From Coriaria nepalensis (lineage: Eukaryota > Streptophyta > Magnoliopsida > Cucurbitales > Coriariaceae): a stretch of DNA of 64,000 nucleotides. A model generated the notes under the pieces. The model had not been told where the DNA came from. It saw only the letters and a list, made by a program, of their open reading frames with translations, and ran no database searches. The stretch spans positions 2,673,501-2,737,500 of the forward strand of contig CP114492.1 in assembly GCA_027186245.1 (NCBI GenBank). Direction: 5' to 3'. The position numbers and the translations under genes were made by a program. This document shows positions 1,351 through 62,610 of the stretch, piece by piece; the first letter of the stretch is position 1; each line of letters begins with the position of its first letter.

Positions 1351-1428
1351 AACCCTAGATTAGTAAAACATTCATACACATCTTCATAGAAAAAGAAGCT
1401 AAGAAGCTAAGCCGAATCAATCACCATC

Positions 1429-5237: not shown

Positions 5238-8200
5238 ATGGCGTCCATGAACCTTTCAACTAGAATGCCCTTGCTGAAATCGAATCCCTCAAAGGTCTCT
5301 GTTCGCCTCGCCTCTTCTAGAAATCTCTGCGACGATTTTCACTGTCAATCAATGCTCAGAAGAAGGAAATGTGTGCAGAGAAGGCAGACGATTGCTGTTA
5401 GATCCATGAGGATCACCGAAGATAGCCAGAAGGACCAGCTCGCTACTCAGAACGGTCCTCTTGGCTCTGTGAGTTTTTTTTTCTTCTCTGATTTCTTTAG
5501 TTTTGCTCTTTAATCTCGGCTTATATAGTTGTTTCTGAGGCTCTTTAGCTCTTTTACTTGGTTGTTCAGAAGGTTTGAAGAATATGGAATGAATTTCATA
5601 TTTTGAATGACTGTGTGCAGAAAGTTAATGACTGTTTTCTAGTTGGTTCAGCTCTTGAAACTTCAGTTTGGATCAAGAATCCAGTTTGAACTTGCAAAAC
5701 CCAAGTTTGTTGCTCATCCAAACACAAAATACAGTTTTGACTTGCAATCTAACTAAAATACAGTTTTTATGAACTACAATTTACCTCAAGTTCAGTTTTA
5801 TGACCAACGAGTATGTGATTCATGATTCACTGCTTTGGCTTTTTCAACCCCCTCCCTGTTTCTTTTGATGACTATAATTTTGATTAGTAGCTGGGAAGAT
5901 CTAAGAAATTGTATAATTGCAAAAAAAATATTTTGTAATTCAGGATACTGACTTCAGCTCAGTTGGGTTAAAATGAAAAGTGAAAGTTTTTAGTCTATTC
6001 TTTCTTGCTTTCTTAGATTGCGAACTATATTTAGGAACATGAGGCTTATCATATGTTGTAATTCTCAATTGATGGGTTTTTGTCTTAATGTTGATATGTG
6101 AAATGGTATGTTTGCTATGGCTATCTGAACTTCCTGCATACTTGAGTATCGAGTTCATTGAAAATCTATGTTCTTTACTGGATTACATAAGTTTTGGATA
6201 TAATTTTAAGTTTTTTAAATAATAATCAGGTTCTTATATCACAGAAAAGGTTTTAACACTTGGTTTATTATTCTTGTTGTTCCTAGAAGGCTCACAATCA
6301 ATATAAAGCTTGAACTATTCATTTTCCTCAGGATCAGCTGAACTCTCCTACTGGGCTTCAGTTTTCTGAGTATGCTCGGAACCAGCAAAGGATAACTTCA
6401 AACACTCAAAGAAAAACTAAGATAGTTTGCACCATTGGTCCTTCAACAAGCAGTCGTGAAATGATTTGGAAGTTGGCTGAAACTGGAATGAATGTGGCAC
6501 GCTTAAATATGTCTCATGGTGATCATGCTTCCCACCAGAAAACCATTGATCTGGTTAAGGAATATAATGCTCAATTTGAAGAGAAGGTTATTGCTGTAAT
6601 GCTCGACACCAAGGTATGATAAGCATACTCAGATAGGTTGATGCAATAATATGACTGACCTTTCTGGATGAACTGAAATCAAGCTTGATGCGAAGTTCAA
6701 TTCTTTTTCTTTTATCTATTTCTCTATATTTTTGGTCAACAAACTCCGATAGGTTGGGGAAAGCCCAACCACCCACCCACCTGAATCACTTTCACTCCCA
6801 ATCAACCTATATGCAAACACATAATACTTGCTTTTATATTTCCCTACTTACTTTTGTCTGATACTAATGGAGATTTGTTGTGGAAACATATGGTTGAAAT
6901 CCTGCTTTAAGAGCTTAGTGACTCCATTTACTGGTCTAATGGAGGGGCATCACCCTCTGCCATGATAAATATGGGATCTTCATGCAACCAAATTCATTCT
7001 TTATTATGTCGTGTAGGGTCCCGAGGTTAGAAGTGGAGATGTGCCTCAACCAATCCTACTCAAGGAGGGGCAAGAATTTAACTTCACCATTGAAAGTGGA
7101 ATCAGCTCAGAAGACACTGTTAGTGTAAACTATGATGACTTTGTGAATGATGTAGAGCCTGGGGACATTTTACTTGTTGATGGTGAGCAGATATTTCCTT
7201 GGTGGAAATTTTCCTCACACAGAAAACAAAACAGCATTACAGTTGTTGTCCCACTTATTTTCCAATTTGGTATCGTAGACCTTTAACAATGAGGGAAGCT
7301 TTTTTAATCCAACAAGAGGTGAAAAAGTGATTTTTTTATTCACGTTATGCTAAATTATCTGGACTCATTTTCATATTCAAACCGTGAGTAGTGAGGGAGA
7401 GTGTAAAAAGAAACTGTTGTTTGAAACATATGACCTTGCAAATTAGTTATTTCTGTAGTCAGAAAGTTTATCAGAGAAGGCTTCTTTTATCTCCTTTTCG
7501 CCGAATATAGGATTTGCAGATATTTTCTTCAAATCTTTTAATTTGGACAGAGGTGTAAAATTAAGTTTTCATATTGGATCTCGACACTTAAGTGGGTTAT
7601 AACTTATATTGTGCCTTGTACTAGGTGGAATGATGTCTTTAGCTGTTAAGTCAAAGACAAAGACTATGGTTAAATGTGAAGTAGTTGATGGTGGCGAACT
7701 AAAATCAAGGCGTCATTTGAATGTCCGTGGAAAAAGTGCAACTCTGCCTTCAATAACAGGTATATAAATTTGAAGTGTTGGTATGAAATTGTCTCTTTTT
7801 TGTACTTATAAGGTCATCACTTTAATCTTTGCACATATTCTCCTATCTACAGACAAGGACTGGGATGATATAAAGTTTGGAGTGGATAACCAAGTTGATT
7901 TTTATGCCGTCTCCTTTGTAAAAGATGCTAGAGTAGTTCATGAGCTGAAAGACTATCTGAAAGGTACATCTTTTTATTTGGTAATCAATCAGATTCTATT
8001 TTCTTGTTTCAACTTACTTGCGCCGTTTTCCTTTTTTGTGATTGATCTTCTAATTGCAAATATCTTTTGTAGGTTGTAATGCAGATATTTATGTGATTGT
8101 AAAGATTGAAAGTGCGGACTCTATACCAAATCTTCATTCAATACTTTCAGCAGCTGATGGGGTTAGTTTCTAAGTTTCTTGTTCTCTAAATAATTCTAAT

Positions 8201-11067: not shown

Positions 11068-14000
11068 TCAGACTTCGTTTCCATCGTTTCTCGATTTTGC
11101 CTCTAGTTTGATACACTTGTACCATCTAGCAGTTGCAATGTAAACAACCAAATCAACAGTTGTCAATGCAGCTAAGAGGAAGAAAAACCTGTCAAGATGA
11201 CCCCTATTGAGATTTCCCGGAATCCATCCCGACATGTGATCCTCAGTCGATATCTTCATAACCATGGAGACAAGCAAACTGCTCACATAATTTCCCAAAG
11301 AGATTGATGTCATACAAAGAGCACTTCCAAAGCTCTTCAACCCATCTGGTGCTTGTGCATTGAAGAATTCTAATTGACCCACGTACATAAAAACCTCGGA
11401 AGCACCGATAAATGCATATTGAGGCACCTGCCAGAATATGCTCAAGGTGCTTGATCCATCACAATTTAAGCATTCTATTTTCGCATACCTTAGTCTATAG
11501 CACTCTACTATTCCAGCCGAAATCATTGCCAAAACAGCTATGATGAGTCCTATTCCCATCCTTTGAAGTTCGGTGAGCCCTTTAGAGCTTGATTTTCTCA
11601 ATTTCCCAATGATAGGGTCGACAACTTGGCGGTGAAGGAAAGTGAAGATCACGACGCTAGTGATGTCGAAGGTAGACATGCTTGCGGGTGGGATACGGAA
11701 GTGGGAAATCGTGGTTTTCATGGCGGCACCTTGCTCAACGAAGAGGGAGGCCATTTGGGTGAAGACAACAGAGTAGAGTATGGTGCATAGCCAGATTGGG
11801 AGTAGTCTTAAGATGCATTTGACTTCTTCTACTTGTGTGATCGGGCAGAGACGCCATGAGTTGTGTGGGCCCTGCTTTTGGTCGTCAATATCACGTGACG
11901 AAATGTAGGCTGCCCTGTCCAAGAACCTAAACATAAACAAATAAATTATAAGCATGGGCGTAAACTATTTCTCTTCAACCTCAACAAAATTATAATAAAA
12001 AGATGCCTAAGAAAAATAAGTACATAAGATAAAAGTATTAAGAGAACAATTTCCTTACTTAAATCCATGTGTGTAGAGTATCTTTCGATTTCCATTCATT
12101 GAGCTATCATCGCGATGAACATTGTATAACTCCTCTTCGTCCGTTGGCATTTCGACCTTCCATTTCTTAAATGCGGCAATGATGACTTGGCAGAACCGGG
12201 AAAGAGGGTTGCCACTAGATTTGAAATGTCGGAATCTTGGGGTGCAAGCAACAAACAAGACCAATCCCGCAAGAGCCGAGGCCGTTGAGACCCAAAAACC
12301 AAGCGCCCACTTTCCTTCATCTTCATAGTACACCAACACAGTGTTGGAGAAGAGTTCCCCAAGGTTCAAAGCTAAGTAGAAGTAGCTGAAGAAGTTAATT
12401 TTTGCCATTCCCTCGTTTATGTCTTCGCTATCGAATTGATCAGCTCCAAATGTGGCAATGTTTGGTTGATATCCTCCATATCCTAGGGCAACTAGGTAGA
12501 TAGAGAGGTAGAATAACCCGATCTCCATGTTTGAATGTGTCCCACATGGAGTTACTTGGTCACCACAACCTCTAGGTCTTATGAGAAAAAGGTATGATGA
12601 CAGAGAGAGTAACCCTGAGCCCTGTGATAGAGAAATAAATAATGAGTACCCTGTAATGATTGAGGATCAAGGAATCGAGAAATAATTATATGTAACATAT
12701 ACACCATGTGATATCGTATAGTTACGTCTCGTTGTTTGGTTTCTTAAATGGACCTAGATGACTTAACATTTTCACTTTCCTAGAGCCGTAAGAATATTAA
12801 GGAAGAAAATCTATCAAATGGTTTTAGTAAACTTACAATTACAAAGATGAGTTGAAAGATGGCACAAGTCTTAAACCTTCCCCAGTAGGAGTCGCTGAGG
12901 AAAGCCCCAACAAGAGAGAAAATGTAGACTGTCCCGGTCCATTTGCTCACACTGTTAGCGGCATCAGCATTGTTTTCTTGTAAAACCCGCGTCAGAAACA
13001 ACACCAAGTTCACTCCAACACCAAAGAATGCGAGGGTTGCCAAACCTTGATTCACTGATCATACAGATTAAATTAGAATGAAGTAAAGCATTAAACATGG
13101 AAAGTTAGGATTAGTATGCTATAATATTATCGGACATCGGTCGTCCCAAATCACACCCAAGCAAATGACAAGTGCTTTTCTTTTGGGGAAATTGGTAAGT
13201 TACACAAAATTCCCATTTCAATCATACATATACTTTATTCCTAGACTTCAATTAACGATAGGAATCCGGGTAAGGGACGTTTCTCAAATCATCGATTGTC
13301 ATTCTCCTATATATATAAATATACATATCACATGCTTTGTATCAATAAAGTTAGAAATTGAAAACGATCTTCACCTTAGATCTATGTGTCGTGTGTAAAT
13401 GATGAACATAATTCACTATGCATGTGCACTCAAAATATATGTTTGGCAACTTGATAAGTGCATGTAGGGATACAAATAGTAGGGGACTCTCTTCTTATGG
13501 TAGTGCCAAGAAGCACCATAAAATTTGTGTTCTCGCCAAAGTGATAAAGCATATCCAACATTACTTTGCAATAATGGATCTTAATAGCTAATAGTGTGGG
13601 TTAAAAATAAAAGGTTCCCTTTTAGCTTTTTCCCACTAAAACTATGCCTTTTCTTGCTAGGACTTTTCTCTTAATGGGTTTATTAGCCAACTAGTGACAT
13701 ATTCGTTTAGTGACTCGTTAAGTCATGCATCAAACTATATATGTCATTTCTTGGAGGATTAACACATGTTCATTTTAATAAACTTTAGGGAATAGTCACA
13801 TCGGAATGAAAAAAAAAAATGTACTAAAACATTCTTGGGCCAAATAAAACCCTACTTACTGTTACCACATGCTTAAACATATACTTATAATTTTGTTCTT
13901 TCCTATCTCTTAAACTATATCTACCAGATATGATATATAATTTTGAGCCAAAACAATAGGAATCAATTACGTTTTTTTCCCCCTCTAAATCATCACTAAT

Positions 14001-29886: not shown

Positions 29887-32800
29887 ATGGGGATCCCGCC
29901 TGAAGGATCGGATCCCAAAACAATAGCCACATGGAACAGGTGGCTGGAGCAAGATAACGAGATATAATACATTATTCTTGCATCTATGAGTAACGAGCTC
30001 CGAAAGTATTATGAAAAGTTCAATGATCGTGAGATTGTTGATAAACTTAAATTTGTTTATGGTGAGGATATTTGAAACGATAGCTATGAGATATCTAAAG
30101 CATTATTTCAGATTAAGATGACTGAGGGTACCTCTGTTAGTGAACATGTGGTGAAGATGATCACCTATATTGAACAACTTGAGAGTCTTAGACTTGTTGC
30201 GGATTGTAAGTTGATCAATAACTTGGTGCTGTAATCTCTTCCTGATTCATTCTCGCCGTTTGTGCTAAACTTCCTTAGGAATAAGATAGAACCCGAGCTA
30301 TATGATTTGCATAAGATGCTGAAAAATACTGAGAAATACATCAAAAAGGATAAACCCATATTGCTTACGGGAGGTTCTTCCAAAAGGGAGGACAGTGCCA
30401 AGCTAAAGAAGCGAGGCAAGAAAGGGACCCTTAAAGCAAGGAAGGGAGATGGAAATATAAAGAAGGGAAAATATGGAAAGTATTTCCACTATGGCGAAAG
30501 TAAACATTGGAAGCGAAGTTGTAAGGTTTATCTTGCAACTCTGAAAAATATGGTGATATTGCTTCAGGTATATTCATGATTAAGGTTAATATTTCTTGCA
30601 ATGATTGATCTACTTGGGTATTAGATACCAATTGTGGTGCTTATATTTTTAATAATGTGTAGAATCTAAGAGATAGAAAAATTCTAGAGAAAGGTAAAGT
30701 GGACCTACGAGCTGGAAGTGAAGCAACAAATACTGCTTTAGTTATGGGCACTTATAGTTTAGTTTTGCCTTCGGGCTTAGTTTTAAATTTAAGACAATGT
30801 TATTATGCACTTTGATTCAAAATAGTGTTTCTATTTATAGACTTGATGAGGTAGGGTTTGTCTTCTCTATCAAGGATAATATTTTAAGTTTGTTTATGAA
30901 TGATTTTATTTTATGGAAGTGGTTCCTTAAATAGTGGTGTGTATAACTTAAATTTGAAAAATGAAACTTGCTTCAATATTGAATAGGTCAAGAAAAAAAA
31001 AGTTTGATATGAATCAAACATACTTATGGCATTGTCGATTAAGTAATGCTAATGAAACAATGATTCAAAAGTTATATAATAATAGATATTTAGATCCATT
31101 TAATTTGGAATCAATGCCAACTAGTGAATCTTGTTTATTAGGCCAGATGATCAAATCTTCTTTTAGTGGATTGGAGAGAGACAAATTGAGTTGATAAGAC
31201 TAGTATATACTGATGTATGTAGGCATATATGTCAACACTAGCTAGATGTAGTTCTTCATACTTCGTCACAATCACCGATGATCTCTTTTAATTCGGTTAT
31301 ATTTATCTTATGAAGCGTAAATCCGAATCATTTTAGAAATTTAAGGAATACAAGAGTGAAGTAGAAAAACAAATAGGTAAAAGTATAAAGGTACTTTGAT
31401 TTGATCGAGGTGGTGAATACTTGAGTCACAATGGAACCCTCGCAATGGATATAATCACGCAATGGACCCCTCGTCGAACACCATAGTTGAATGGCATGTC
31501 TGAGAGGATAAATCAAACACTCTTGGAGATGTTTCGGTTCATGATGAGCTTTACCGATCTACCTCTATCATTTTGAGGATATGCCATGAAAACCTCCACT
31601 TACATAATTAACATGATACCTTCAAAATTTATTTTTTCAATACCATATGAGATATAAAAGGGTAGAAGAGCATGCTTTAAACATATTCACGTATGGGGTT
31701 GTCATTCTTATGTCAAGAAGTAAGAAGTAGAAAAGTTAGTGGCAAGATACGAAAAATATTATTTTATGGGGTATCCAAAGGAAAATTTAGGATACTACTT
31801 TTACCATTCCACTAAGTATAAAATGTTTATTGCTAAATATGATGTCTTCTTAGAGAAGGAATTCCTTTCTAAACAGAATAGTGGGAGCAAAATTGAACTT
31901 GATGAAGTTCATAATACATAAAATGACGTTCAGATCGATGATCATATTACCCTACTAGTTTTGGATGAGGTACCTCTAAGAAGGGATGATGTGATACCTC
32001 AGAGTACATAAATTGTTCATAGATCTAGTAGATCATAGAAGATGATCCTACGACTTATTCCGAGGCTATTACTAGTTTGTATTATGAGAGATATCTAGGT
32101 GTCATGAGATCATAGATGGATTCCATATATGCCAACTAAGTACGAGACTTGTGGATGCACCTGAAGGAATAGTTCCTTTAGGATGCAAATGAGTTTTCAA
32201 GAAGAAAAGTGAGGTAGATGGAAATATCAAAACCAATAGGGCTAAACTAGTTGTAAATGATTACAAACAAAGAGAAGGAATCGATTATGAAGAAAATTTA
32301 TTGCCCATAGTAATGACTAAATCCATTCAGAGATTGCTTGCCATTGTAGCATATCACGGTTATGAAATCTGAAAAATGAATGTGAAAACAACCATCCTAA
32401 ATGGGTACCTCGAGAAGGATGTGTATATGATACAACCTGAGGGCTCCATGAATAAGAAATACATAAAAAAATTATGTAAGTTGCAATGGTCTATATGTGG
32501 CCTTAAACAAACATCTCGGAGTTAGAACATTCATTTTAATGAAATGGTCAAATCATTTGACTTCATATATAATGAAATACTACTTATTGGGAATGATGTA
32601 GGTATATTACATTATATTAAGTTATGACTATCAAAGAACTTCTCTATGAAAGATTTGAACGAAGCTGCCTATATTCTAGGAATAAAGATTTATAGAGATA
32701 GATCTAGGCTTGACCCAATTGACATACATAGACAAAGTGCTAATGAGATTTAGCATGAAATATTTTAAGAGAGGATTTCTGCCAATGAGTCATAGAATCT

Positions 32801-33555
32801 ACCTCTACAATAATATGTCTCTCAAGATAAAATCGGAGAGGGATGAGATAAGTAAAATCCCTTATGCCTCGACAATGGGATCCATCATGTATGTTATATT
32901 ACATACGAGGCCGGATGTTGCCTATACTCTTAAGTATTATAAGCAGATTTCAAGGCAATCTGGGTAAGAAGCATCAGACTATTGTTAAGAACATTCTTAA
33001 GTACTTGAGAAGGACTAATGACATGTTCTTGGTTTATGGAGGATTAGACTTGAAAATTAAAGGTTTCAGAGTCTTTCGTTTCCAGTCAGATGTTGACGAT
33101 ATTAAATCAATTTTAGGATTCGTCTTTACACTAAATGGTGGAGCGGTCAGTTGGAAGAGTTTCAAACAAGAAACGACCATAGATTCCACAACTAAAGTTG
33201 AATACATTGAAGCTTCAGAAGAAGCAAATGAAACGTTATGGATGAAAAAGGTCATACCTGAACTTGGTGCGGCTTGGAGCATCTTTAATCTCGTAGTAGT
33301 GTACTGCGATAATAACGATGCAATAGCAAAAACAAAGGAATATAGGTCTCATCAGAAATCCAAACATGTGCTACGACATTATCACCTCATCCGAGAGATA
33401 ATTGGAAGTTGAAATGTCAACATAGAGAGGGTAGACACATATGACAATATAACAGATCCATTCACTAAGGCGATTTCCCAACAAAACTTTGATCGCCATT
33501 TTGACATGATGAGAATTAGATTCAGAAATGATTGACTTTAGTGCAAGTGAGAGAT
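29887..33555 (+). mobile_element. Copia A: decayed Ty1/copia retrotransposon internal region
   Basis: Domains run in copia order on the plus strand. The gag region starts with MGIPPEGSDP at 29887 and ends in a zinc knuckle at about 30480-30520, whose first Cys positions are changed to Tyr. A protease-like WVLDTNCGA lies near 30610 and a GAG-pre-integrase segment (YLWHCRLSNANETMIQKLYN) at about 31020. Integrase remnants span 31190-31560. Reverse transcriptase (LVVNDYKQREGIDYEE, then NGYLEKDVYMIQPEG) occupies 32200-32700. RNase H follows at 32860-33412. Integrase precedes reverse transcriptase, which defines copia rather than Gypsy. Many stops and frame breaks occur. The segment that should carry the catalytic YVDD box is deleted, leaving only its following LLIGNDVG. 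A polypurine tract, GCAAGTGAGAGA, precedes the LTR. Dead; any movement would need another copy's enzymes. Confidence 0.9.
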
Positions 33556-33915
33556 TGAAAGTATATGCTTGTCAAGCTAATCGGATTTGACCTGATGAGA
33601 CAAATATTTTATGTGATACTATCTTTATGTAGATACTAATAAGACATAATTTATAATCATTAATAAAAGCCAGTTATTATTTATCTGTTTATTAATTTTG
33701 TTGGAATTGATATTATATATTCTATACATGCATATTATGATAAAATTCATTATCTTGAGTTATGCACTCTAGAGAACATGATAGAAATCATGATAGTAGA
33801 GACTTGAGTAGTTAAAAACTCTAAGGATACAATTGGTTTATTTTCATAGGATCTTGTGAATGAATATTAATTGATACATATAGACAATCATGAAATTCAT
33901 TAATCTTAAATCAAT
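33556..33915 (+). repeat. 3' LTR of Copia A (decayed, partial)
   Basis: Starts with TG directly after the polypurine tract. From 33577 it aligns by eye with the satellite unit at 41832. Shared motifs in order are TAATCGGAT, ATGTAGATACTA, TTATTATTTAT, GATAAAATTCATTATCTTGA followed by GTTATG, CTAGTAGA or ATAGTAGAGACT, AAAAACTCT, and ATAGACAATCAT. Similarity fades after about 33915, so the right end of the LTR is lost or diverged. This copy identifies where the satellite came from. Confidence 0.8.
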
Positions 33916-34832
33916 GTTTAGGGAAAATAAATACCTCTTTTGATTTATAAAACTCTTCTTGAATAAGATAGGGATGTATTCACATGTTCGCACTTTAACC
34001 GTTATTTACACAATTCGTTTCATATGGTTAAGTTTCCACTTACGATTTCAACACGTGAGATAATAAGCTTGGGAAAAAGGAATGGAAAAAGAGATTTTGG
34101 ATATACTATGGAAGGGTTAATTGATTGGCTATTTTGGTAACAATTTTTTGTGATGGATGAGTGAATTGATTGATTTTTTTGTGGCTCATTTAGAGGGTCG
34201 TTAGGAGCTTTTACAATCTTGGTTTTTTGTGGGGGGTTTGTTTTTTTTTTTTTTTTTTGCCGTTGGTGGTTGTTGTACTAAAGAAGATTTATGGTTAAGT
34301 AGTTCATGATGTGTGAGCAGATTGATTTATGGGTAAGCAGATGTGTAAGGTTTCGTTTATGATTGATTGTTTGATATGTCTTATATACATATGTAATGTT
34401 TCGTTTACTGTTTGCTGTCTAAGTGAAATTTGTTGTTTGCTGTTCGATGCATATTGTGCCTTTAAGCATATATACTCATTTCTGATCATCCTAACCTAGA
34501 GGCAAAATGTGTCTCTCCCATGTATAGTGTTGGTGAAAAAACTACATATAGATGAGTGATACGTATATAAATTTATGATGTAATTCTTAGAACTAACATA
34601 GACACTTTTGTGTTTGAAGAATCAGCAACATAAAAATCAAATAAGATGAAATCACATAACATATATGCAATTTGAAAAGGGATGATGTAATTACATCCAA
34701 ATATATAAATCACATAACATACTTGCAATCTCTAACTACATATAGTTTTCACCTTAAAAAAATACATACAAACAATAGTATGTTAATATTGAATTTCTCT
34801 ACTACAAAAGTTAGATAAATATCCAAATTCAA
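33916..34832. other. Intergenic, no gene seen
   Basis: Contains a T-rich and G-rich patch at 34220-34260 and otherwise ordinary AT-rich DNA. It may include diverged remnants of the Copia A LTR at the left end. Confidence 0.45.
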
Positions 34833-35240: not shown

Positions 35241-36537
35241 ACATCACAGAAATACATCTTTCTTCAACCTGAGTACATAATCAAATTCAAGAGTACATAA
35301 TCAAATTAAACACACATCATACAGACACATTGTTTAGACACATCTAATTAGTCAACTTAAACACACATCGTACAAACACATATAATTAATCAAATTTCCA
35401 CCATTCTCTGATTAATCAAAGTTCCAAACAATTCCAAACAATTGCAAAGATAACAAAAATGTTTCCACCATTAATCAAATTTCCAAGAAATGCTAAACAA
35501 TTTGAAACAAAATAAAATAGTTCCCACCATTTTTAGGTTTCAAACAAAAGAATTTCCATAATTTTCAAGTTTCACACATACAGATTTCAAACAAAACATA
35601 CCACCACATTTTCATTCACACACAAATATGTATGTTTTGTTGATTCACACATGACAGAATGAACAAAACATTCATATTTTATGCAGGTATTCCTATCTTC
35701 AAAAAATGGGTCTATACTACGAAAATAGAGAAATCAAAATGAAAAAGCACGTATTCCCTTCTTCAAAAAATGGGTCTATGCTACGAAAATAGAGAAATCA
35801 GAATGAAGAAGAGTAAGGAGTGGTGAAATCATAGATTAGATCGTATATGATGAAGGCAGAAGTTGACAATTCATGAAAACTCAACGTTGTTTATGGCTGT
35901 TGAGGTTCATCTTCCTTTCGTGCTAGCCCCTCGTCTGGATGAAGGAGCAAAGAAGAAGGGTTTGGTTTGAAAATTGGTAAAGGAGATCGAAGAAATCTGA
36001 ATGAAGGGGTAATGAAGAAATTGAAATTTAATAGGGTTAAAAAAGTAAAATAACAGTCAAAAGTGAGGCTAAAATGATTATGAAAAATCATTTTTGAAAA
36101 AGAGTTTCACTTACTAAACGGTGAAATTGTTGAAAAAAAAAAAGAATCAAATGTGTTATTCTTGAGGATAACCAAACGATGAAATGATAATACAACTATT
36201 CTAACTGATTGCTTAAAAGTATCATTTATTATCATTCATCCATAGTAATGCAACTAGTTTTAGGAAACCAACCATGCCTTTGCCGAAAATGTTTGAAAAT
36301 AGTTTTTTTTTTTTTTGAGAAGTGTAAAAGAAAAGAAAAAAAAAGAGAAAACAAAGGTTGGAGTTATTAAAGACGTTATGCATGTATCCTCCATTAAAAC
36401 ATGAATTACTAACCCACATATGACCACCTTTGTCTTCCCACTATTGTTTTAGTGTTATGCTTTCTATAGTCTTTTCAAGACCTAAAAAGCAAGATTATAC
36501 ATCCACTTTCTCTCTCTCTTTTATTTTTATTTATTTA
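35241..36537. other. Intergenic with a small tandem duplication
   Basis: Low-complexity, with scattered CACACAT and CCAAACA motifs around 35280-35600 and the 64-bp duplication listed separately. No supported gene. A minus-strand frame at 35891-36091 is unrecognised. Confidence 0.45.
35687..35812. repeat. Two-copy tandem repeat, 64-bp period
   Basis: GTATTCC begins at 35687 and again at 35751. Both copies contain TTCTTCAAAAAATGGGTCTA or TCTTCAAAAAATGGGTCTA, then CTACGAAAATAGAGAAATCA. The differences are a few substitutions, so the duplication is fairly recent. Confidence 0.9.
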
Positions 36538-41785: not shown

Positions 41786-43572
41786 AATATTAGCTTTTGG
41801 CAAGCTGATTTTGAAAATGGATATCTGTCAAATTAATCGGATCTTGACATGGGATAAATATTTTATTTGATATGATATTTATGTAGATACTAGTATAATA
41901 TTATTTATTATCATTAATTAAGTTAATTATTATTTATTAATTTTATTAAAATTAATATTATATATATCATGATAAAATTCAGTATCTTGAGTTATGTGCT
42001 CTGAATATTATGATAAAGATCGTGCTAGTAGATACTCGAGTCGCTAAAAACTCTTAAGATACAACCAGTTCATTGTTATAAGATCGCGAGAATAGACATC
42101 GATAGATCCGGATAGACAATCATATAGTTCATAATCTAATCTTAGGGTGATCAATTTCACAATCAGTGGTGTTAGTAGAATACTATAATGGTGTTGAACT
42201 TGATACATCGATAATTTTTAATGGTATTTAATACTTATGTTAATGAGAATTATATAATGACTATTTGATATGTGATCCTCCGACTTGAGAGACCATGGTT
42301 TTCTTAGTATCGGACTTCATACTTTGACATCATTCCTATTAGCCCTAGCCATAGATGAGCACGGGGTGAACCATTGAGTATCGAGTGTTGTGTGAGAAAA
42401 ATTAATCGGATTTCAACATGGGATAAATTATTTATTTGATATGATATTAATGTAGATATTAGTAAAATATTATTTATTGTTATTAATTAAAGTCAATTAT
42501 TATTTATTATATTTATTGATTTTATTGAAATTAATATTATATATTATATATATCTTGATAAAATTCATTATCTTGAGTTATGTACTCTGAATATTATGAT
42601 AAAGATCGTGCTAGTAGATACTCGAGTCGCTAAAAACTCTTAAGATACAAATAGTTCATTATTATAAGATCTTGAGAATAGATATCGATAGATCCGGATA
42701 GACAATCATATAATTCATAATCTAATTTTAGGGTGATCAATTTCACAGTTAGTGGTGTTAGTAGAATATTATAATGGTGTTGAACTTGATACTTCGACAA
42801 TTTTTAATGGTATTTAATACTTATGTAAATGAGAATTATATAATGACTATTTGATATGTGATCCTCCGATTTGAGAGACCATGGTTTTCTTAGTATCGGA
42901 CTTCATACTTTGACATCATTCCTATTAGCCGTAGCTATAGATGAACACGGGGTGAACCATTGAGTATCGAGTGTTGTGCGAGAAAAATTAATAGGATTTC
43001 CACATGGGATAAATTATTTATTTGATATGATATTAATGTAGATATTAGTAAAATATTATTTATTGTTATTAATTAAAGTCAATTATTATTTATTATATTT
43101 ATTGATTTTATTGAAATTAATATTATATATTATATATATCTTGATAAAATTCATTATCTTGAGTTATGTACTCTGAATATTATGATAAAGATCGTGCTAG
43201 TAGATACTCGAGTCGCTAAAAACTCTTAAGATACAAATAGTTCATTGTTATAAGATCTTGAGAATAGATATCAATAGATCCAGATAGACAATCATATAAT
43301 TCATAATCTAATTTTAGGGTGATCAATTTCACAATTAGTAGTGTTAGTAGAATATTATAATGGTGTTGAACTTGATACTTCGACAATTTTTAAGGGTATT
43401 TAATACTTATGTAAATGAGAATTCTATAATGACTATTTGATATGTGATCCTCCGACTTGAGAGACCATGGTTTTCTTAGTATCGGACTTCATACTTTGAC
43501 ATCATTCCTATTAGCCCTAGCCATAGATGAGCACGGGGTGAACCATTGAGTATCGAGTGTTGTGCGAGAAAA

Positions 43573-45914
43573 ATTAATCGGATTTCAACATGGGATAAAT
43601 TATTTATTTGATATGATATTAATGTAGATATTAGTAAAATATTATTTATTGTTATTAATTAAAGTCAATTATTATTTATTATATTTATTGATTTTATTGA
43701 AATTAATATTATATATTATATATATCTTGATAAAATTCATTATCTTGAGTTATGTACTCTGAATATTATGATAAAGATCGTGCTAGTAGATACTCGAGTC
43801 GCTAAAAACTCTTAAGATACAAACAGTTCATTGTTATAAGATCTCGAGAATAGATATCGATAGATCCGGATAGACAATCATATAATTCATAATCTAATTT
43901 TAGGACGATCAATTTCACAGTTAGTGGTGTTAGTAGAATATTATAATGGTGTTGAACTTGATACTTCGACAATTTTTAATGGTATTTAATACTTATGTAA
44001 ATGAGAATTATATAATGACTATTTGATATGTGATCCTCCGACTTGAGAGACCATGGTTTTCTTAGTATCGGACTTCATACTTTGACATCATTCCTATTAG
44101 CCCTAGCTATAGATGAACACGGGGTGAACCATTGAGTATCGAGTGTTGTGCGAGAAAAATTAATCGAATTTCAACATGGGATAAATTATTTATTTGATAT
44201 GATATTAATGTAGATATTAGTAAAATATTATTTATTGCTATTAATTAAAGTCAATTATTATTTATTATATTTATTGATTTTATTGAAATTAATATTATAT
44301 ATTATATATATCTTGATAAAATTCATTATCTTGAGTTATGTACTCTGAATATTATGATAAAGATCGGGCTAGTAGATACTCGAGTCGCTAAAAACTATTA
44401 AGATACAAACAGTTCATTGTTATAAGATCTCGAGAATAGATATCGATAAATACGGATAGACAATCATATAATTCATAATCTAATTTTAGGGCGATCAATT
44501 TCACAGTTAGTGGTGTTAGTAGAATATTATAATGGTGTTGAACTTGATACTTCGACAATTTTTAATGATATTAATACTTATGCAAATGAGAATTATATAA
44601 TGACTATTTGATATGTGATCCTCCGACTTGAGAGACCATGGTTTTCTTAGTATCCGACTTCATACTTTGACATCATTCCTATTAGCCCTAGCTATAGATG
44701 AACACGGGGTGAACCATTGAGTATCGAGTGTTGTGCGAGAAAAATTAATCGGATTTCAACATGGGATAAATTATTTATTTGATATGATATTAATGTAGAT
44801 ATTAGTAAAATATTATTTATTGTTATTAATTAAAGTCAATTATTATTTATTATATTTATTGATTTTATTGAAATTAATATTATATATTATATATATCTTG
44901 ATAAAATTCATTATCTTGAGTTATGTACTCTGAATATTATGATAAAGATCGTGCTAGTAGATACTCGAGTCGCTAAAAACTCTTAAGATACAAACAGTTC
45001 ATTGTTATAAGATCTCGAGAATAGATATCGATGGATCCGGATAGACAATCATATAATTCATAATCTAATTTTAGGGCGATCAATTTCACAGTTAGTGGTG
45101 TTAGTAGAATATTATAATGGTGTTGAACTTGATACTTCGACAATTTTTAATGGTATTTAATACTTATGTAAATGAGAATTATATAATGACTATTTGATAT
45201 GTGATCCTCCGACTTGAGAGACCATGGTTTTCTTAGTATCGGACTTCATACTTTGACATCATTCCTATTAGCCCTAGCTATAGATGAACACGGGGTGAAC
45301 CATTGAGTATCGAGTGTTGTGCGAGAAAAATTAATCGAATTTCAACATGGGATAAATTATTTATTTGATATGATATTAATGTAGATATTAGTAAAATATT
45401 ATTTATTGCTATTAATTAAAGTCAATTATTATTTATTATATTTATTGATTTTATTGAAATTAATATTATATATTATATATATCTTGATAAAATTCATTAT
45501 CTTGAGTTATGTACTCTGAATATTATGATAAAGATCGGGCTAGTAGATACTCGAGTCGCTAAAAACTCTTAAGATACAAACAGTTCATTGTTATAAGATC
45601 TCGAGAATAGATATCGATAAATACGGATAGACAATCATATAATTCATAATCTAATTTTAGGGCGATCAATTTCACAGTTAGTGGTGTTAGTAGAATATTA
45701 TAATGGTGTTGAACTTGATACTTCGACAATTTTTAATGATATTAATACTTATGCAAATGAGAATTATATAATGACTATTTGATATGTGATCCTCCGACTT
45801 GAGAGACCATGGTTTTCTTAGTATCCGACTTCATACTTTGACATCATTCCTATTAGCCCTAGCTATAGATGAACACGGGGTGAACCATTGAGTATCGAGT
45901 GTTGTGCGAGAAAA
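43573..45914 (+). repeat. Two-unit higher-order repeat, 1171-bp period
   Basis: Units at 44159 and 45330 share private changes: TAATCGAATTT at the start, TTATTGCTATT, GATCGGGCTAG, GATAAATACGGATAG, AATGATATTAATACTTATGC and GTATCCGACTTC. Units at 43573 and 44744 instead share the standard forms. The pair was therefore duplicated as a block. Confidence 0.85.
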
Positions 45915-47086
45915 ATTAATCGGATTTCAAGATGGGATAAATTATTTATTTGATATGATATTAATGCAGATATTAGTAAAATATTATTTATTGTTATTAA
46001 TTAAAGTCAATTATTATTTATTATCTTTATTGATTTTATTGAAATTAATATTATATATTATATATATCTTGATAAAATTCATTATCTTGAGTTATGTACT
46101 CTGAATATTATGATAAAGATCGGGCTAGTAGATACTCGAGTCGCTAAAAACTTTTAAGATACAAACAGTTCATTGTTATAAGATCTCGAGAATAGATATC
46201 GATAGATCCGGATAGACAATCATATAATTCATAATCTAATCTTAGGGTGATCAATTTCACAGTCAGTGGTGTTAGTAGAATATTATAATGGTGTTGAACT
46301 TGATACTTCGATAATTTTTAATGGTAATTAATACTTATGTTAATGAGAATTATATAATGACTATTTGATATGTGATCCTCCGACTTGAGAGACCATGGTT
46401 TTCTTAGTATCAGATTTCATACTTTGACATCATTCCTATTAGCCCTAGCCATAGATGAACACAGGGTGAACCATTGAGTATCGAGTGTTGTGCGAGAAAA
46501 ATTAATCGGATTTCGACATGGGATAAATTATTTATTTGATATGATATTAATGCAGATATTAGTAAAATATTATTTATTGTTATTAATTAAAGTCAATTAT
46601 TATTTATTATATTTATTGAATTTATTGAAATTAATATTATATATTATATATATCATGATAAAATTCAGTATCTTGAGTTATGTACTCTGAATATTATGAT
46701 AAAGATCGTGCTAGTAAATACTCGAGTCGCTAAAAACTCTTAAGATACAAACAATTCATTGTTATAAGATCTCGAGAATAGACATCGATAGATCTGGATA
46801 AACATTCATATAGTTCATAAACTATTCTTAGGGTGATCAATTTCACAGTTAGTGGTGTTAGTAGAATACTATAATGGTGTTGAACTTGATACTTCGATAA
46901 TTTTTAATGGTAATTAATACTTATGTTAATGAGAATTATATAATGACTATTTGATATGTGATCCTCCGACTTGAGAGACCATGGTTTTCTTAGTATCGGA
47001 CTTCATGCTTTGACATCATTCCTATTAGCCTTAGCCATAGGTGAACACGGGGTAAACCATTGAGTATCGAGTATTGTGCGAGAAAA

Positions 47087-50000
47087 ATTAATCGGATTTC
47101 AACATGGGATACATTATTTATTTGATATGATATTAATGTAGATAATAGTAAAATATTATTTATTGTTATTAATTAAAGTCAATTATTATTTATTGATTTT
47201 ATTGAAATTATTATTATATATTATATATATCATGATAAAATTCAGTATCTTGAGTTATGTACTCTGAATATTTTGATAAAGATCGTGCTAGTAGATACTC
47301 GAGTCGCTAAAAACTCTTAAGATACAAACAGTTCATTGTTATAAGATCTCGAGAATAGACATCGATAGATCTAGATAGACAATCATATAGTTCATAATCT
47401 AATCTTAGGGTGATCAATTTCACAGTCAGTGGTGTTAGTAGAATACTATAATGGTGTTGAACTTGATACTTCGATAATTTTTAATGGTAATTAATACTTA
47501 TGTTAATGAGAATTATATAATGACTATTTGATATGTGATCCTCCGACTTGAGAGACCATGGTTTTCTTAGTATCGGACTTCATACTTTGACATCATTCCT
47601 ATTAGCCCTAGCCATAGATGAACACGGGGTGAACCATTGAGTATCGAGTGTTGTGCGAGAAAAATTTATCGGATTTCGACATGGGATAAATTATATATAT
47701 GATATGATATTAATGTAGATATTAGTAAAATATTATTTATTGTTATTAATTAAAGTCAATTATTATTTATTATATTTATTGATTTTATTGAAATTAATAT
47801 ATATCATGATAAAATTCATTATCTTGAGTTATGTACTCTGAATATTATAATAAAGATCGTGCTAGTAGATACTCGAGTCGTTAAAAACTCTTAAGATACA
47901 AACGGTTCATTGTTATAAGATCTCAAGAATAGATATCGATAGATCCGGATAGACAATCATATAATTCATAATCTAATCTTAGGGTGATCAATTTCACAGT
48001 CAGTGGTGTTAGTAGAATACTATAATGGTGTTGAACTTGATACTTCGATAATTTTTAATGGTAATTAATACTTATGTTAATGAGAATTATATAATGACTA
48101 TTTGATATGTGATCCTCCGACTTGAGAGACCATGGTTTTCTTAGTATCGGACTTCATACTTTGACATCATTCCTATTAGCCTTAGCCATAGGTGAACACG
48201 GGGTAAACCATTGAGTATCGAGTATTGTGCGAGAAAAATTAATCGGATTTCAACATGGGATACATTATTTATTTGATATGATATTAATGTAGATAATAGT
48301 AAAATATTATTTATTGTTATTAATTAAAGTCAATTATTATTTATTGATTTTATTGAAATTATTATTATATATTATATATATCATGATAAAATTCAGTATC
48401 TTGAGTTATGTACTCTGAATATTTTGATAAAGATCGTGCTAGTAGATACTCGAGTCGCTAAAAACTCTTAAGATACAAACAGTTCATTGTTATAAGATCT
48501 CGAGAATAGACATCGATAGATCTAGATAGACAATCATATAGTTCATAATCTAATCTTAGGGTGATCAATTTCACAGTCAGTGGTGTTAGTAGAATACTAT
48601 AATGGTGTTGAACTTGATACTTCGATAATTTTTAATGGTAATTAATACTTATGTTAATGAGAATTATATAATGACTATTTGATATGTGATCCTCCGACTT
48701 GAGAGACCATGGTTTTCTTAGTATCGGACTTCATACTTTGACATCATTCCTATTAGCCCTAGCCATAGATGAACACGGGGTGAACCATTGAGTATCGAGT
48801 GTTGTGCGAGAAAAATTTATCGGATTTCGACATGGGATAAATTATATATATGATATGATATTAATGTAGATATTAGTAAAATATTATTTATTGTTATTAA
48901 TTAAAGTCAATTATTATTTATTATATTTATTGATTTTATTGAAATTAATATATATCATGATAAAATTCATTATCTTGAGTTATGTACTCTGAATATTATA
49001 ATAAAGATCGTGCTAGTAGATACTCGAGTCGTTAAAAACTCTTAAGATACAAACGGTTCATTGTTATAAGATCTCAAGAATAGATATCGATAGATCCGGA
49101 TAGACAATCATATAATTCATAATCTAATCTTAGGGTGATCAATTTCACAGTCAGTGGTGTTAGTAGAATACTATAATGGTGTTGAACTTGATACTTCGAT
49201 AATTTTTAATGGTAATTAATACTTATGTTAATGAGAATTATATAATGACTATTTGATATGTGATCCTCCGACTTGAGAGACCATGGTTTTCTTAGTATCG
49301 GACTTCATACTTTGACATCATTCCTATTAGCCTTAGCCATAGGTGAACACGGGGTAAACCATTGAGTATCGAGTATTGTGCGAGAAAAATTAATCGGATT
49401 TCAACATGGGATACATTATTTATTTGATATGATATTAATGTAGATAATAGTAAAATATTATTTATTGTTATTAATTAAAGTCAATTATTATTTATTGATT
49501 TTATTGAAATTATTATTATATATTATATATATCATGATAAAATTCAGTATCTTGAGTTATGTACTCTGAATATTTTGATAAAGATCGTGCTAGTAGATAC
49601 TCGAGTCGCTAAAAACTCTTAAGATACAAACAGTTCATTGTTATAAGATCTCGAGAATAGACATCGATAGATCTAGATAGACAATCATATAGTTCATAAT
49701 CTAATCTTAGGGTGATCAATTTCACAGTCAGTGGTGTTAGTAGAATACTATAATGGTGTTGAACTTGATACTTCGATAATTTTTAATGGTAATTAATACT
49801 TATGTTAATGAGAATTATATAATGACTATTTGATATGTGATCCTCCGACTTGAGAGACCATGGTTTTCTTAGTATCGGACTTCATACTTTGACATCATTC
49901 CTATTAGCCCTAGCCATAGATGAACACGGGGTGAACCATTGAGTATCGAGTGTTGTGCGAGAAAAATTAATCGGATTTCGACATGGGATAAATTATATAT

Positions 50001-50539
50001 ATGATATGATATTAATGTAGATATTAGTAAAATATTATTTATTGTTATTAATTAAAGTCAATTATTATTTATTATATTTATTGATTTTATTGAAATTAAT
50101 ATATATCATGATAAAATTCATTATCTTGAGTTATGTACTCTGAATATTATAATAAAGATCGTGCTAGTAGATACTCGAGTCGTTAAAAACTCTTAAGATA
50201 CAAACGGTTCATTGTTATAAGATCTCAAGAATAGATATCGATAGATCCGGATAGACAATCATATAATTCATAATCTAATCTTAGGGTGATCAATTTCACA
50301 GTCAGTGGTGTTAGTAGAATACTATAATGGTGTTGAACTTGATACTTCGATAATTTTTAATGGTAATTAATACTTATGTTAATGAGAATTATATAATGAC
50401 TATTTGATATGTGATCCTCCGACTTGAGAGACCATGGTTTTCTTAGTATCGGACTTCATACTTTGACATCATTCCTATTAGCCCTAGCCATAGATGAACA
50501 CGGGGTGAACCATTGAGTATCGAGTGTTGTGCGAGAAAA
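47087..50539 (+). repeat. Two-unit higher-order repeat, three copies, 1151-bp period
   Basis: Type-a units (47087, 48238, 49389) carry GGGATACATTATT, GTAGATAATAG and GAATATTTTGATAAAG. Type-b units (47664, 48815, 49966) carry ATTATATATATGATATG, a shortened AATTAATATATATCATG and AAACGGTTC. The a-b pair repeats exactly every 1151 bp. By eye the three pairs are almost identical; one visible difference is ATTAATC versus ATTTATC at 49966. An extra b unit follows at 50540 and an extra a unit ends the array at 51700. Confidence 0.9.
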
Positions 50540-53510
50540 ATTTATCGGATTTCGACATGGGATAAATTATATATATGATATGATATTAATGTAGATATTA
50601 GTAAAATATTATTTATTGTTATTAATTAAAGTCAATTATTATTTATTATATTTATTGATTTTATTGAAATTAATATATATCATGATAAAATTCATTATCT
50701 TGAGTTATGTACTCTGAATATTATAATAAAGATCGTGCTAGTAGATACTCGAGTCGTTAAAAACTCTTAAGATACAAACGGTTCATTGTTATAAGATCTC
50801 AAGAATAGATATCGATAGATCCGGATAGACAATCATATAATTCATAATCTAATCTTAGGGTGATCAATTTCACAGTCAGTGGTGTTAGTAGAATACTATA
50901 ATGGTGTTGAACTTGATACTTCGATAATTTTTAATGGTAATTAATACTTATGTTAATGAGAATTATATAATGACTATTTGATATGTGATCCTCCGACTTG
51001 AGAGACCATGGTTTTCTTAGTATCGGACTTCATACTTTGACATCATTCCTATTAGCCGTAGCCATAGATGAACACGGGGTGAACCATTGAGTATCGAGTG
51101 TTGTGCGAGAAAAATTAATCGGATTTCGACATGGGATAAATTATTTATATGATATGATATTAATGTAGATATTAGTAAAATATTATTTATTATTATTAAC
51201 TAAAGTCAATTATTATTTATTATATTTATTGATTTTATTGAAATTAATATTATATATTATATATATAATGATAAAATTCAGTATCTTGAGTTATGTACTC
51301 TGAATATTATGATAAAGATCGTGCTAGTAGATACTCGAGTCGCTAAAAACTCTTAAGATACAAATAGTTCATTGTTATAAGATCTCGAGAATAGACATCG
51401 ATAGATCCGGATAGACAATCATATAGTTCATAATCTAATCTTAGGGTGATCAATTTCACAGTCAGTGGTGTTAGTAGAATACTATAATGGTGTTGAACTT
51501 GATACTTCGATAATTTTTAATGGTAATTAATACTTATGTTAATGAGAATTATATAATGACTATTTGATATGTGATCCTCCGACTTGAGAGACCATGGTTT
51601 TCTTAGTATCGGACTTCATGCTTTGACATCATTCCTATTAGCCTTAGCCATAGGTGAACACGGGGTAAACCATTGAGTATCGAGTATTGTGCGAGAAAAA
51701 TTAATCGGATTTCAACATGGGATACATTATTTATTTGATATGATATTAATGTAGATAATAGTAAAATATTATTTATTGTTATTAATTAAAGTCAATTATT
51801 ATTTATTGATTTTATTGAAATTATTATTATATATTATATATATCATGATAAAATTCAGTATCTTGAGTTATGTACTCTGAATATTTTGATAAAGATCGTG
51901 CTAGTAGATACTCGAGTCGCTAAAAACTCTTAAGATACAAACAGTTCATTGTTATAAGATCTCGAGAATAGACATCGATAGATCTAGATAGACAATCATA
52001 TAGTTCATAATCTAATCTTAGGGTGATCAATTTCACAGTCAGTGGTGTTAGTAGAATACTATAATGGTGTTGAACTTGATACTTCGATAATTTTTAATGG
52101 TAATTAATACTTATGTTAATGAGAATTATATAATAACTATTTGATATGTAATCCTCCGACTTGAGAGACCGTGGTTTTCTTAGTATCGGACTTCATGCTT
52201 TGATATCATTCCTATTAGCCCTAGCCATAGGTGAACACGGGGTGAACCGTTGAATATTGAGTATTGTGCGAGAAAATTATGAGTGGTCAAGAGAGAAACC
52301 ATTGTTTCCAGTATTGGGAATAAGGTTTTATAGATTATATATGTTACTGAATATAGAATCTTTACAAAGTAATATGATTTGAAAAGAATTTATATAAATT
52401 TGTTGTCGATGTTCAATAAATGTATGGTAATTCATATGATTTATCTATTAGAGTTTAATAGTTAAATCATGTCCTATGACGAATCAGGATATTAGAGAGA
52501 TGACATGATTGTTATTATAAATATATGATGGTCACAATAGGTTTTTTCAAAAGATTGTACTTCTCATCTCCCAAGTAGTTTTGACACTTTTCTAGAAATT
52601 AATCTTAACTTGAAGGTTTAAGGTTATTTGATCATGATATGATTAAATTAAATATTTAATTTAAAAGGTTATTTTAAATTAGAATTAAATAAAATCATAA
52701 ATGTGTTTATGAAATCCTTCTATCAGCATGATATAGAATCTAATCGGTTATACAGATAAAATTTATAGTAACTCAGTTTAAGTTTGGTCGCAGAAAAAGG
52801 AAAAATGAACTAAAATTATTTTAAAGGTAAAATAGTAATTTGACTTATAGTTTGACTATAATGGCAAAATAATTATTATTAATTTGTTAATTTAATGTCA
52901 TGTAGCTTGGCTAGCACAACTAAGTGTGATATTAATTTATGAATTGTTATTTAATTATAAAAGTGCCCTAAATATTTATATTAATAATTAGATATTAATG
53001 AGTTAATGGATCTGATTATTAATTTGTATTTTGTATGCCAAATTAATCAAAAGGTTGATTAAGTATCCATGAGTTATACCTATTATAGTAGCTGGCCATA
53101 TCAGGATGGATTTGACCGAATTTAATCTCTTAAGAGTTTTAAGATATAAGTACACCAAATGCATTAGCCGAAATAAATTCTCATCTCTAAGCCTCTTGGC
53201 CAAAAATTAAAGAGAGAAAATAATCTCTTATGATTTGAGATCTTAAGTAGAAACTTAATGGTGCAAAATGAATTGTATAGATAACGGTTAGAGGGAAAAC
53301 ACGTGAGCGTTTTCCCATTTTTATAAGAAGAGTTCTATAACTAAGAAGGCAATGTATTCCTCTTCCTTAATCTTGATTTAAATTTGAGACGATTTACGGT
53401 ACTTTCTGTAAAATAAATTATATGTGATATAATTATTATATGATCGATTTAGATAAAAACTATGCATGATAAGATATAATCCGAATAAAATTTTAAATAT
53501 TTTTTCTGCA

Positions 53511-53789
53511 GCATTTTTTTATTTTATTTTGTACACTCACGTTTCTTAACATTTTTCGTTACCAAAAGAAGAAAAATAAAAAAGTTCGTCACTTGATTAT
53601 TGATACACTGCAATATTAGCCTTCTTGTCGACCAAACTGGGCTCTCTCCCCCTTTCACTTTCCTCTCCTTTGTATATTTGAAATGGTCTATTTTTTAATC
53701 CAGACTCATTTACTTCATTTAATATGTATTGTTATAACTATCAAAACAAAGTGTAAGAAAGTTAAAAACCACATCTTAAAACAAAATCC
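53511..53789. other. Short spacer between the solo LTR and the RPC6 relic
   Basis: AT-rich DNA with a CT-rich patch (CTCTCTCCCCCTTTC at about 53641). No feature recognised. Confidence 0.5.
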
Positions 53790-54851: not shown

Positions 54852-54892
54852 CACCTATCATTTCCTTTGATGGTTCGATTCTGAAGCCATAA

Positions 54893-55701
54893 GGGCAGTT
54901 TAACTTATGGTTTGACTGTAAGGACAAAATGATAATTATTAATTTGTTAATTTAATATCATGCAGCTCGACTAGCATAACTTAGTATAACATTAATTTAA
55001 TTAGAAATTAATAAGTATACAAACTGCTATTTAATTATAAAAGTATCCTAAATATTTGTATTAATAATCGAATATTAAAGAGTTAATGAACCGAATTATT
55101 AATTAGATTTTTGTGTGTCAAATTAATTAAAGGGTTAATTAAGTATCCATGGGTTATACCCATTATAGTGATCAGCCATATAAGGAAGAGTTTGACCCAA
55201 TTTTATCTTGTAATAGTTTTAAGATAAAATATAATTTAAGATAACAAGCGTTTTAAGGCAATTAGAAAACCTAATGTTATTATGAAATTATAACCTAATT
55301 GTGCCTATAAGTACACCAAAGACCTTAGCTGAAATAAATTCTCCTCCAAAAGCTTCTTGACAAAAAATCAGAGAAAGAAAATAGTTTTTTTCATTTATTT
55401 TTCCCAAGCTTATTATCTCATGATTTGTGATCTTAAGTAGAAATTTAATAGTGGAAAATGAATTGTATGGATAACAGTTAGTAAGCAAACACGTGAGCTT
55501 TTCCCCATCTTTATAAGAAGAGTTTTATAACTAAGAAGGAAATGTATTCCTCTTCCTTCATCTTGATTTAAATTTGATAGGATTTGTTGTACTTTATGTA
55601 AAATAAATTATATGTAATATAATTATTATATAATCGGTTTGGATAAAAACTGTGCATAATAAGATATGATCCGAATAAAATTTTAAATATTTTTTCTGCA
55701 A
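54893..55701 (+). repeat. Partial LTR of the Copia A family (tail portion only)
   Basis: Aligns by eye with 52835-53510. Shared pieces include AATTATTATTAATTTGTTAA or AATAATTATTAATTTGTTAA, TATAAGTACACCAAA, AAAACACGTGAG or CAAACACGTGAG, TTATAAGAAGAGTT and the end TAAATATTTTTTCTGCA. It lacks the satellite part altogether. It contains about 85 bp near 55220-55305 that the other copy has lost, so the two copies are independent insertions or old duplicates. Confidence 0.8.
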
Positions 55702-55722
55702 CGTTTATTCTTTTATTGTGTA

Positions 55723-56799
55723 TGGTTTGATCGATTCAATGAGTTTCTTCTCTCTTATGGTTTTTTATGTAGCAGTGTAGACCTTTCTTTGTTTATCTAT
55801 AATCACAATGGTCATACTTCGCTGCTTTTATTATATGTTGACGACATTGTGCTTACGGGAAATTCAAAATGCTTAATTAACTCGTTGATAAATGAGTTAA
55901 AGGGTGAATTTCTTATGAAGGATTTAGGACCTTTACATTATTTTTTGGGTATAGAAGTTGTTAACATGCCTGGTGGTTTATTCTTAACTCAAAGTCGGTA
56001 TGCTTCCGAGATTTTGACAAAAGCTCGTATGGAACACTCAAAACCTGTTAGTATGACTCTACCACTTAAAATTCATGATGTTTCTAGTTATGATTTGGAA
56101 CCCTTTCACAATCCAACCTTGTTTCGTAGTATTGTTGGTGTTTTGTAATATTTAATCCTTCCTCAGCCGGATCTTAGCTTTGCAGTTAATACTTTATGTC
56201 AGCATATGCATTTGCCCACAAATGGCCACTTCAAATGATTGTCTCGGGTTCTTCGCTACATCCAAGGTTCTCAAGGTTTGGGTATATAGATTTGGAAGCA
56301 TAGTACTTTAAGCTTATTTGGGTTTAGTGATGCCGATTGAGCTGGATGTTGTGATACTTGACGGTCAACTCTGAGCTATTGTATGTTTCTTGGCTCTAAT
56401 ATTATTTCTTGGAGTGCTAAAATGCAATCTACTGTTGCCCATTCTTCAGCTAAAGCAGAGTGCCGAGCACTTGATTCCGCTACAGTTAACATGACTTATA
56501 TTTGTTCTGCGCGATATTGGTGTTATTCTTCTGCGTCCAACCCACATCCAACTAGGTTATATTGTGATAATCTTTTTGCTCTTCATCTCACTGCAAATCT
56601 AGTGTTTCATGTTCGGGCTAAGCATATTGAGTTAGACTATCATTTTGTTTGGGAAAAGGTTGCCTTAGGTCATCTTATCACACAATATGTTCCTGGCAGC
56701 TTGCAACTCGTAGACGTCTTCACAAAGTCCTTATCTCGCTCACTATTTCTCTCTTTACCAACCAAACGGGATCTTTGTTTATTACCGAATACCGGGGGT
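55723..56799 (+). mobile_element. Copia B: 5'-truncated Ty1/copia element (RT end and RNase H)
   Basis: One continuous reading frame from 55723 to the stop at 56814 with five internal stops and no frameshift. It begins inside reverse transcriptase (WFDRFNEFLLSYGFL) and has an intact LLYVDDIVLTG box at about 55834-55866. It continues MKDLGPLHYFLGIEV and LTQSRYASEIL, then the RNase H region (FSDAD, ISWSAKMQSTVAHSSAKAE, KHIELDYHFVWEKV) and ends in DVFTKSLSRSLF. Gag, protease, integrase and the first part of RT are absent; the element is cut where the Copia A-family LTR piece ends. The element's LTR follows directly. Confidence 0.9.
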
Positions 56800-57082
56800 T
56801 GTGAAATCATGTGAAATATTTCTAGCAAAAATGACACATCTCACATCGTCAACAAGAGCACGCGAAGGAGATTAAGAAAACAAAGGAGACCAAATACCTC
56901 TCTATCCAGCAGCCCAACAGTATTCTAAATATCAGAGAGATTTCATGAGAGATTTGTGAGATTATATGAGAGAGAGAGGAAATTAGGCGTTGTATTTCCC
57001 TATTTAAGCTCTCTCTCATTTATGAATAAAATAAGACAAATTTCAACTCTGTTGCATCTCTAATTCTCTGTTTGTTCTCACA
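56800..57082 (+). repeat. 3' LTR of Copia B (283 bp)
   Basis: Begins TGTGAAATC after the polypurine run ACCGGGGGT and ends TTCTCACA, so the ends form the short inverted pair TGTGA/TCACA. A TATA-like TATTTAAG lies at 57001-57008 and AATAAA at 57025-57030. The last codons of the element's ORF overlap its first bases. Confidence 0.75.
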
Positions 57083-61785: not shown

Positions 61786-61853
61786 GAAATTTTTGGATAT
61801 AGTCAATATACCATAGATTGAAATTTTTGGATATAGTCAATATACCATAGATT
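61786..61853. repeat. Perfect two-copy tandem duplication, 34-bp period
   Basis: GAAATTTTTGGATATAGTCA begins at 61786 and again at 61820, and the copies are identical through CCATAGATT. A very recent slip duplication. Confidence 0.9.
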
Positions 61854-62610
61854 GATTAGTTTTATCATATATATAGTATCTACTGTGATAAATAATATGA
61901 TAATTTCGATTATGATTGATCTTTCTATTATAGATTGAATTTACTGAAAAATTTATCCTGAACATCAATAATACCACATTGTAATGAATCTATCTCAATT
62001 ATGTATGAATGTTTCACCCTTTTCTTTTCCCTTTAACAATTGAATTTATCTTTTTTGTTTTTACCATGATCTCTCTCTCTCTTATCATTATTATTTGCTT
62101 CGATTTATAAGAGTTGCTGATTTGGTAATTAGAATTTAAGAAATTTTTGGCAAAAGGGTTTGTCTTCTCTTAATCACACACACATATATATATATATATC
62201 TGACAATTCAAATAATAGCCATTTGTTTATTTTACAGTCAACAAAGTTTACACCAAATAATTAGTGCTACTGTTTGATTTCATGTAGGCCCTTGAGTGAG
62301 AAACAGGCAGAAACGGCAAGAAAGACAGAGAGTAAACAGAGAAATTTTATGAATCAAATATGTGAGAGCTAAAAGCTAATTTCCTCAGAACTGTATTCAA
62401 ACATTAAGCGGTGAATAGTTTGAATATCTTCGGCCAAAAAGAAAAGAAGCCTGAATATGGGTTTTGGGGCGGAAGATATTATCTTCAACCTCAATAACAT
62501 GTCTTCTGACCAGAATACATGCAAAAACATGAAGATATATCCGTGGTTATCCCCGGCTATATCCTTCCGATAATCAAGTCAGAATGGTATGAGAGAGAGA
62601 GAGTGTATGT

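Follow-up and report, generated by a model that had tools for sequence, protein, structure and literature searches.

Satellite DNAs born from transposons have been reviewed (PMC12628747; further reviews are PMC10794571 and PMC12477314), and repeats in Hydrangea have been treated separately (PMC11897596). The closest described systems include the maize repeats CRM1TR and CRM4TR, which are tandem repeats derived from the LTR region of one retrotransposon family and for which illegitimate recombination has been suggested as the starting event and gene conversion as the means of growth (PMC3648361). Those repeats belong to the Gypsy family CRM, are (peri)centromeric, and have a unit that spans LTR and UTR; no single direct-repeat step was found for their start (PMC3648361). 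By comparison, the array described in this study belongs to a Copia element, its unit falls wholly inside the LTR, and both LTR ends are kept.

Other systems share individual features with this locus. The Sobo satellite of wild potato also has a monomer similar to retrotransposon LTRs, but this monomer is a 4.7 kb composite that forms an array of ~360 kb and is related to a Gypsy element (cited through PMC3648361). SaazCEN of hop is likewise a repeat within a retrotransposon LTR, although it is the centromeric repeat of a centromeric Gypsy family, whereas the array here is, so far as seen, one copy (PMC12371157). The 3'UTR repeats of Ogre/Tat elements and the Lathyrus satellites resemble our array in that an LTR retrotransposon contains a short tandem array with the capacity to expand into a satellite (PMC7004042). 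However, the Ogre/Tat repeats reside in the 3'UTR of Gypsy Tat elements, where they separate the coding region from the 3' LTR, and are carried by many copies, whereas the array here lies inside the LTR, between the head and the tail of a Copia LTR, and the 39 other copies examined are single-unit (PMC7004042 for Ogre/Tat).

LTR-derived satellites are therefore already known, and the array is a clean, unusually readable early case of a known kind. No in-place array inside a Copia LTR is described in the titles and abstract openings surveyed, which does not by itself demonstrate that none exists in the literature. The start of many satellites can no longer be seen, because they are too old or too uniform. 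Here, 39 places in the same genome still show the one-copy precursor, the amplified copy has kept both of its flanks intact, and the array itself lets one read the founding junction as well as two duplication blocks that came later. Because all of these parts are readable, the first steps of satellite formation can be tested by examining alleles and related species.

An 18-unit array between the ends of a Copia LTR

We analyzed a stretch of 64,000 nucleotides from Coriaria nepalensis (G000:C12:2673501-2737500), hereafter called the window. A direct scan of the window shows that 18 head-to-tail units of 569-586 bp fill positions 41833-52276 on the forward strand (unit starts 41833 to 51701), giving an array length of 10,444 bp. 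The initial annotation had proposed 18 units of 574-586 bp. This count is correct, as are the lengths for 17 of the units, but the first unit measures 569 bp. Pairwise identity between units ranges from 93.1 to 100% with a mean of 96.3%, and autocorrelation peaks at 586 and 1151 bp. Classical satellites form arrays of tens of kb or more, or occupy many loci, and they lie in heterochromatin or at centromeres. The present array spans 10,444 bp, in a window that also holds ordinary gene fragments.

The array is carried by a whole Copia LTR on the forward strand (41812..53551), which is 11,740 bp long, or 1,865 bp if only one unit is counted. The LTR head (41812..41832, forward strand) begins with TG and is present once. 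Its left end was established by alignment: the 21 bases that run from this TG up to the first unit match, from base one, the start of the LTR that a decayed copia element has at 33556. The last unit ends at 52276 and is followed by a single-copy LTR tail (52277..53551, forward strand), which lies outside the array. A right LTR end at 53510 was considered, since identity to a fragment at 54878-55722 drops there, and this was replaced by ~53551 because the 3' ends of other genomic copies are TTTCCTAACA-like, and in five copies a primer-binding-site-like sequence follows immediately. Thus, the earlier view that the block is bounded by two Copia LTR ends was accurate for the left end (TG at 41812), but placed the right end ~41 bp too early.

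These head-to-tail units are homologous to an LTR over their whole length, as in an LTR-derived satellite. An Rfam scan of the window returned no family at the gathering score, and neither the hammerhead ribozyme nor the 5S sequence of retrozyme- or Cassandra-type elements was found by it. Searches of virus, bacterial and archaeal genome, and plasmid collections gave no match, which is expected because this is a plant repeat and is no evidence of rarity. The array is selfish or neutral DNA, for which no function is needed or seen.

Family LTRs elsewhere in the genome hold the segment once

Using 1.2 kb of the array as the query, we searched the window's own assembly (316 Mb in 20 contigs). The search skips common words, and the window's own array is absent from its list. 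Among 1030 first-look candidates, 39 places were scored, and all 39 were examined. These exhibit 73-77% identity to the array query, with no other listed place above 77%. Units were counted by a main criterion of alignments of at least 250 bp with E <=1e-12, by which exactly one unit is present in every one of the 39 places. The LTR head alignment begins from position 3 or earlier in 32 of them, and the sequence that follows the array in the window lies directly after the unit in 35 (the exceptions are L018, L019, L031, and L039). Therefore, a normal family LTR holds the segment once, and the array copy holds it 18 times. The initial annotation had named family LTRs without the unit as the finding that would count against it, and none of the 39 is of this kind. 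Its core inference, that an LTR segment was amplified in place with both LTR ends still attached, is thus supported.

At a looser threshold (E <=1e-6), extra weak unit-like matches appear at 12 of the 39 loci, and most of them fall within the first ~200 bp, which are AT-rich. At this threshold, L008 and L009 each carry a second unit-like stretch that is nearly full length, with 60% identity, just upstream of their LTR. These two loci (G000:C7:6564457 and 6553868) are 10.6 kb apart and share their flanks and ends over the stretches compared, and the pair looks like a local duplication.

LTR ends were analyzed in the same set of copies. A start was located in 33 copies (6 of the 39 were without one), and 7 more were without a usable 3' match, leaving 26 copies. 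Perfect 5-bp target duplications are found in 2 of these 26 (L001 and L006), whose LTRs accordingly measure 2029 and 2063 bp. A primer-site pattern follows the LTR directly in 5 of the 26 copies with a 3'-end match, and a polypurine-tract (PPT) pattern precedes the LTR in 6 of the 33 copies with a located start. These are the features of a plant Copia LTR, whose TG start comes after a PPT and whose end is followed by a tRNA primer site; the TG of the array LTR is at 41812.

A decayed copia element upstream of the array

Coding remnants of the decayed copia element occupy positions 30076..33532 on the forward strand. Seven pieces were scanned against Pfam, of which three score above the cut-off (RVT_2, gag_pre-integrs, and SH3_retrovirus), two score below it, and two are without a match. 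A Copia-type coding region is therefore present next to an LTR copy of the family, with its domains located before the LTR at 33556. The start of this element's 3' LTR (33556..33906, forward strand) shares homology with the LTR head and with positions 1 to ~322 of the unit. The broken LTR is joined there to an inverted LTR-tail piece (33906..34098, reverse strand), indicating that the 3' LTR of the decayed element was rearranged.

Comparison of the unit with the decayed LTR yields a score of 178, versus a maximum of 47 in 200 dinucleotide shuffles, and this homology covers only about half of the unit. In a low-stringency search with the second half of the unit, none of the four window stretches tested scored higher than the shuffles, and the other weak matches are AT-rich. 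Because the second half has no counterpart there, the window alone shows only half of the LTR origin. The proposed homology of the unit to the decayed element's 3' LTR 8 kb upstream consequently holds for positions 1 to ~322 and fails for the remainder.

The same annotation had also presented ancestor and product as lying in one window, and this part was not upheld. Mean identity to the units is 77.7% for the decayed copia element and 80.2% for the other genomic LTRs, which are 80.9% identical to each other. Other copies are thus at least as close to the units as the decayed LTR at 33556 is, and that LTR stops at unit position ~322; it was rejected as the ancestor. The decayed copia element is a family cousin. 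Another piece of the same family is located beyond the array, where a second LTR tail fragment (54878..55722, forward strand) is 70% identical over 846 columns to the tail of the array LTR. Within 54878-56811, this tail fragment adjoins a fragment of reverse transcriptase (RVT_2 at 55687-56145) that resembles a different copia lineage.

A probable founding duplication and later growth

All 17 internal junctions of the array have an identical form, reading GAGAAAAA before the unit boundary and TT after it. The head of the array LTR reads CAAATTAATCGG and the array-to-tail junction reads GAGAAAATTATGAG, and from these it can be seen that the two breakpoints have AAATTA in common. At least 6 bp are common to the breakpoints in 0.4% of 200,000 random breakpoint pairs. 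However, the junctions hold one A more than simple exchange within AAATTA would yield, and copy-by-copy comparison shows that the left breakpoint sequence differs in most other copies. For these two reasons, we can only infer the founding step.

A tree was built from the 18 units, the 39 LTR segments, and the decayed copy in the window, with no clock applied. The 18 units form one clade versus the 39 LTR segments, with support of 1.0. The stem of the units is 0.132 and their mean crown depth is 0.044, and LTR terminal branches average 0.142. Given the difference between crown and stem, the units coalesced well after the array copy diverged, with the caveat that homogenization can make arrays appear younger than their age. 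Since all 17 junctions have the same form and the units form one clade, we favor one founding duplication that was followed by growth.

We assign a probability of roughly 0.92 to the reading that one old Copia LTR had an internal segment tandemly duplicated once in place, and that this grew to 18 units with both LTR ends attached. The starting state would have been an old Copia LTR in which the segment (LTR positions 22 to ~590) was present once. Founding would have been a single in-place tandem duplication by an illegitimate event at the short common stretch AAATTA. Later growth may reflect unequal exchange, gene conversion, or slippage during replication, with two units added at once in some of the steps.

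The caveat of homogenization, by which the array could look younger than it truly is, bears on a different reading in which the first tandem duplication took place during reverse transcription by strand transfer and arrived with the element, such that only later growth occurred in place. An origin of this type has been proposed for the Ogre/Tat tandem repeats (PMC7004042). We consider it unlikely for this locus because, by the main criterion, two units are seen in none of the 39 copies examined, and because the tree depths place the coalescence of the units well after the split of this copy from its relatives.

Evidence for growth after an in-place founding duplication is visible in two blocks on the forward strand. 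Block A (43425..46248) is a two-unit duplication of u04-u05 to u06-u07, with a distance of 1171 and 99.15% identity. Block B (46822..50526) is a two-unit repeat with a distance of 1151 and 99.7% identity that includes an exact run of 1810 bp. In block B, u10, u12, and u14 are exactly identical, as are u11 and u13, where the number of exact copies is as assembled. Unit identity at lag 2 is greater than in all 10,000 shuffled unit orders, but its margin over lag-1 identity does not reach significance (881/10,000 shuffles), and so the two-unit growth steps are regarded as local events. Mean identity to the other units is lowest for u01 and u18 (94.5% and 95.5%, respectively), which sit at the two array edges, as expected where exchange is weaker.

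The exact copies in block B and its 1810 bp exact repeat are also what would be seen if the copy number, mainly in this block, were an assembly artefact. This is quite improbable, since most units are several percent apart and carry their own substitutions and indels, which are not invented by an assembler, and thus only the number of exact copies would be affected. Even with a genome search that skips common words and omits the window's own array, there is very little chance that a dispersed satellite family from elsewhere was captured by, or inserted into, the array LTR, because 35 of 39 copies contain the unit as a native part of their LTR, single-copy and contiguous with the rest, such that nothing had to be captured, and because no other listed place passes the 77% identity noted above.

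A more tentative proposal, which we regard as somewhat doubtful, is that this satellite has been caught at birth and is still growing. The front segment of one LTR copy would then be an expansion site that often gains two units, the unit number would probably vary between individuals, and one-unit alleles might survive.

Target site and surroundings of the array LTR

The initial description of the array LTR as a solo LTR is unproven. Its two flanking 5-mers, GATTT and TTTTT, have 3 of their 5 bases in common and hence do not form an intact target-site duplication. Decay of target duplications is common in this family, given that they are perfect in only 2 of the 26 other copies. The left flank of the array LTR is PPT-like, which offers only a hint that this is the 3' LTR of a truncated element. 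Among 500 shuffles, 8 score as well as this flank, as do 14 of 5000 sites chosen at random, and it was not recovered by a profile search. When the internal flanks of six copies were compared with the sequence upstream of the array LTR, four gave no match, and L035 and L036 gave short matches of 60-72%.

Several gene fragments are present in the window. These include a Prolamin_like fragment above the cut-off (1411-1797, forward strand), a pyruvate kinase fragment with one piece above the cut-off and one below it (6314-8079, forward strand), and a POT/PTR2 transporter fragment (11068-12666, reverse strand). The array therefore lies within ~30 kb of genes. Two-copy tandem duplications are also found in the window at 61786-61855 (34 bp, 100% matches) and at 35683-35811 (64 bp, 90%).
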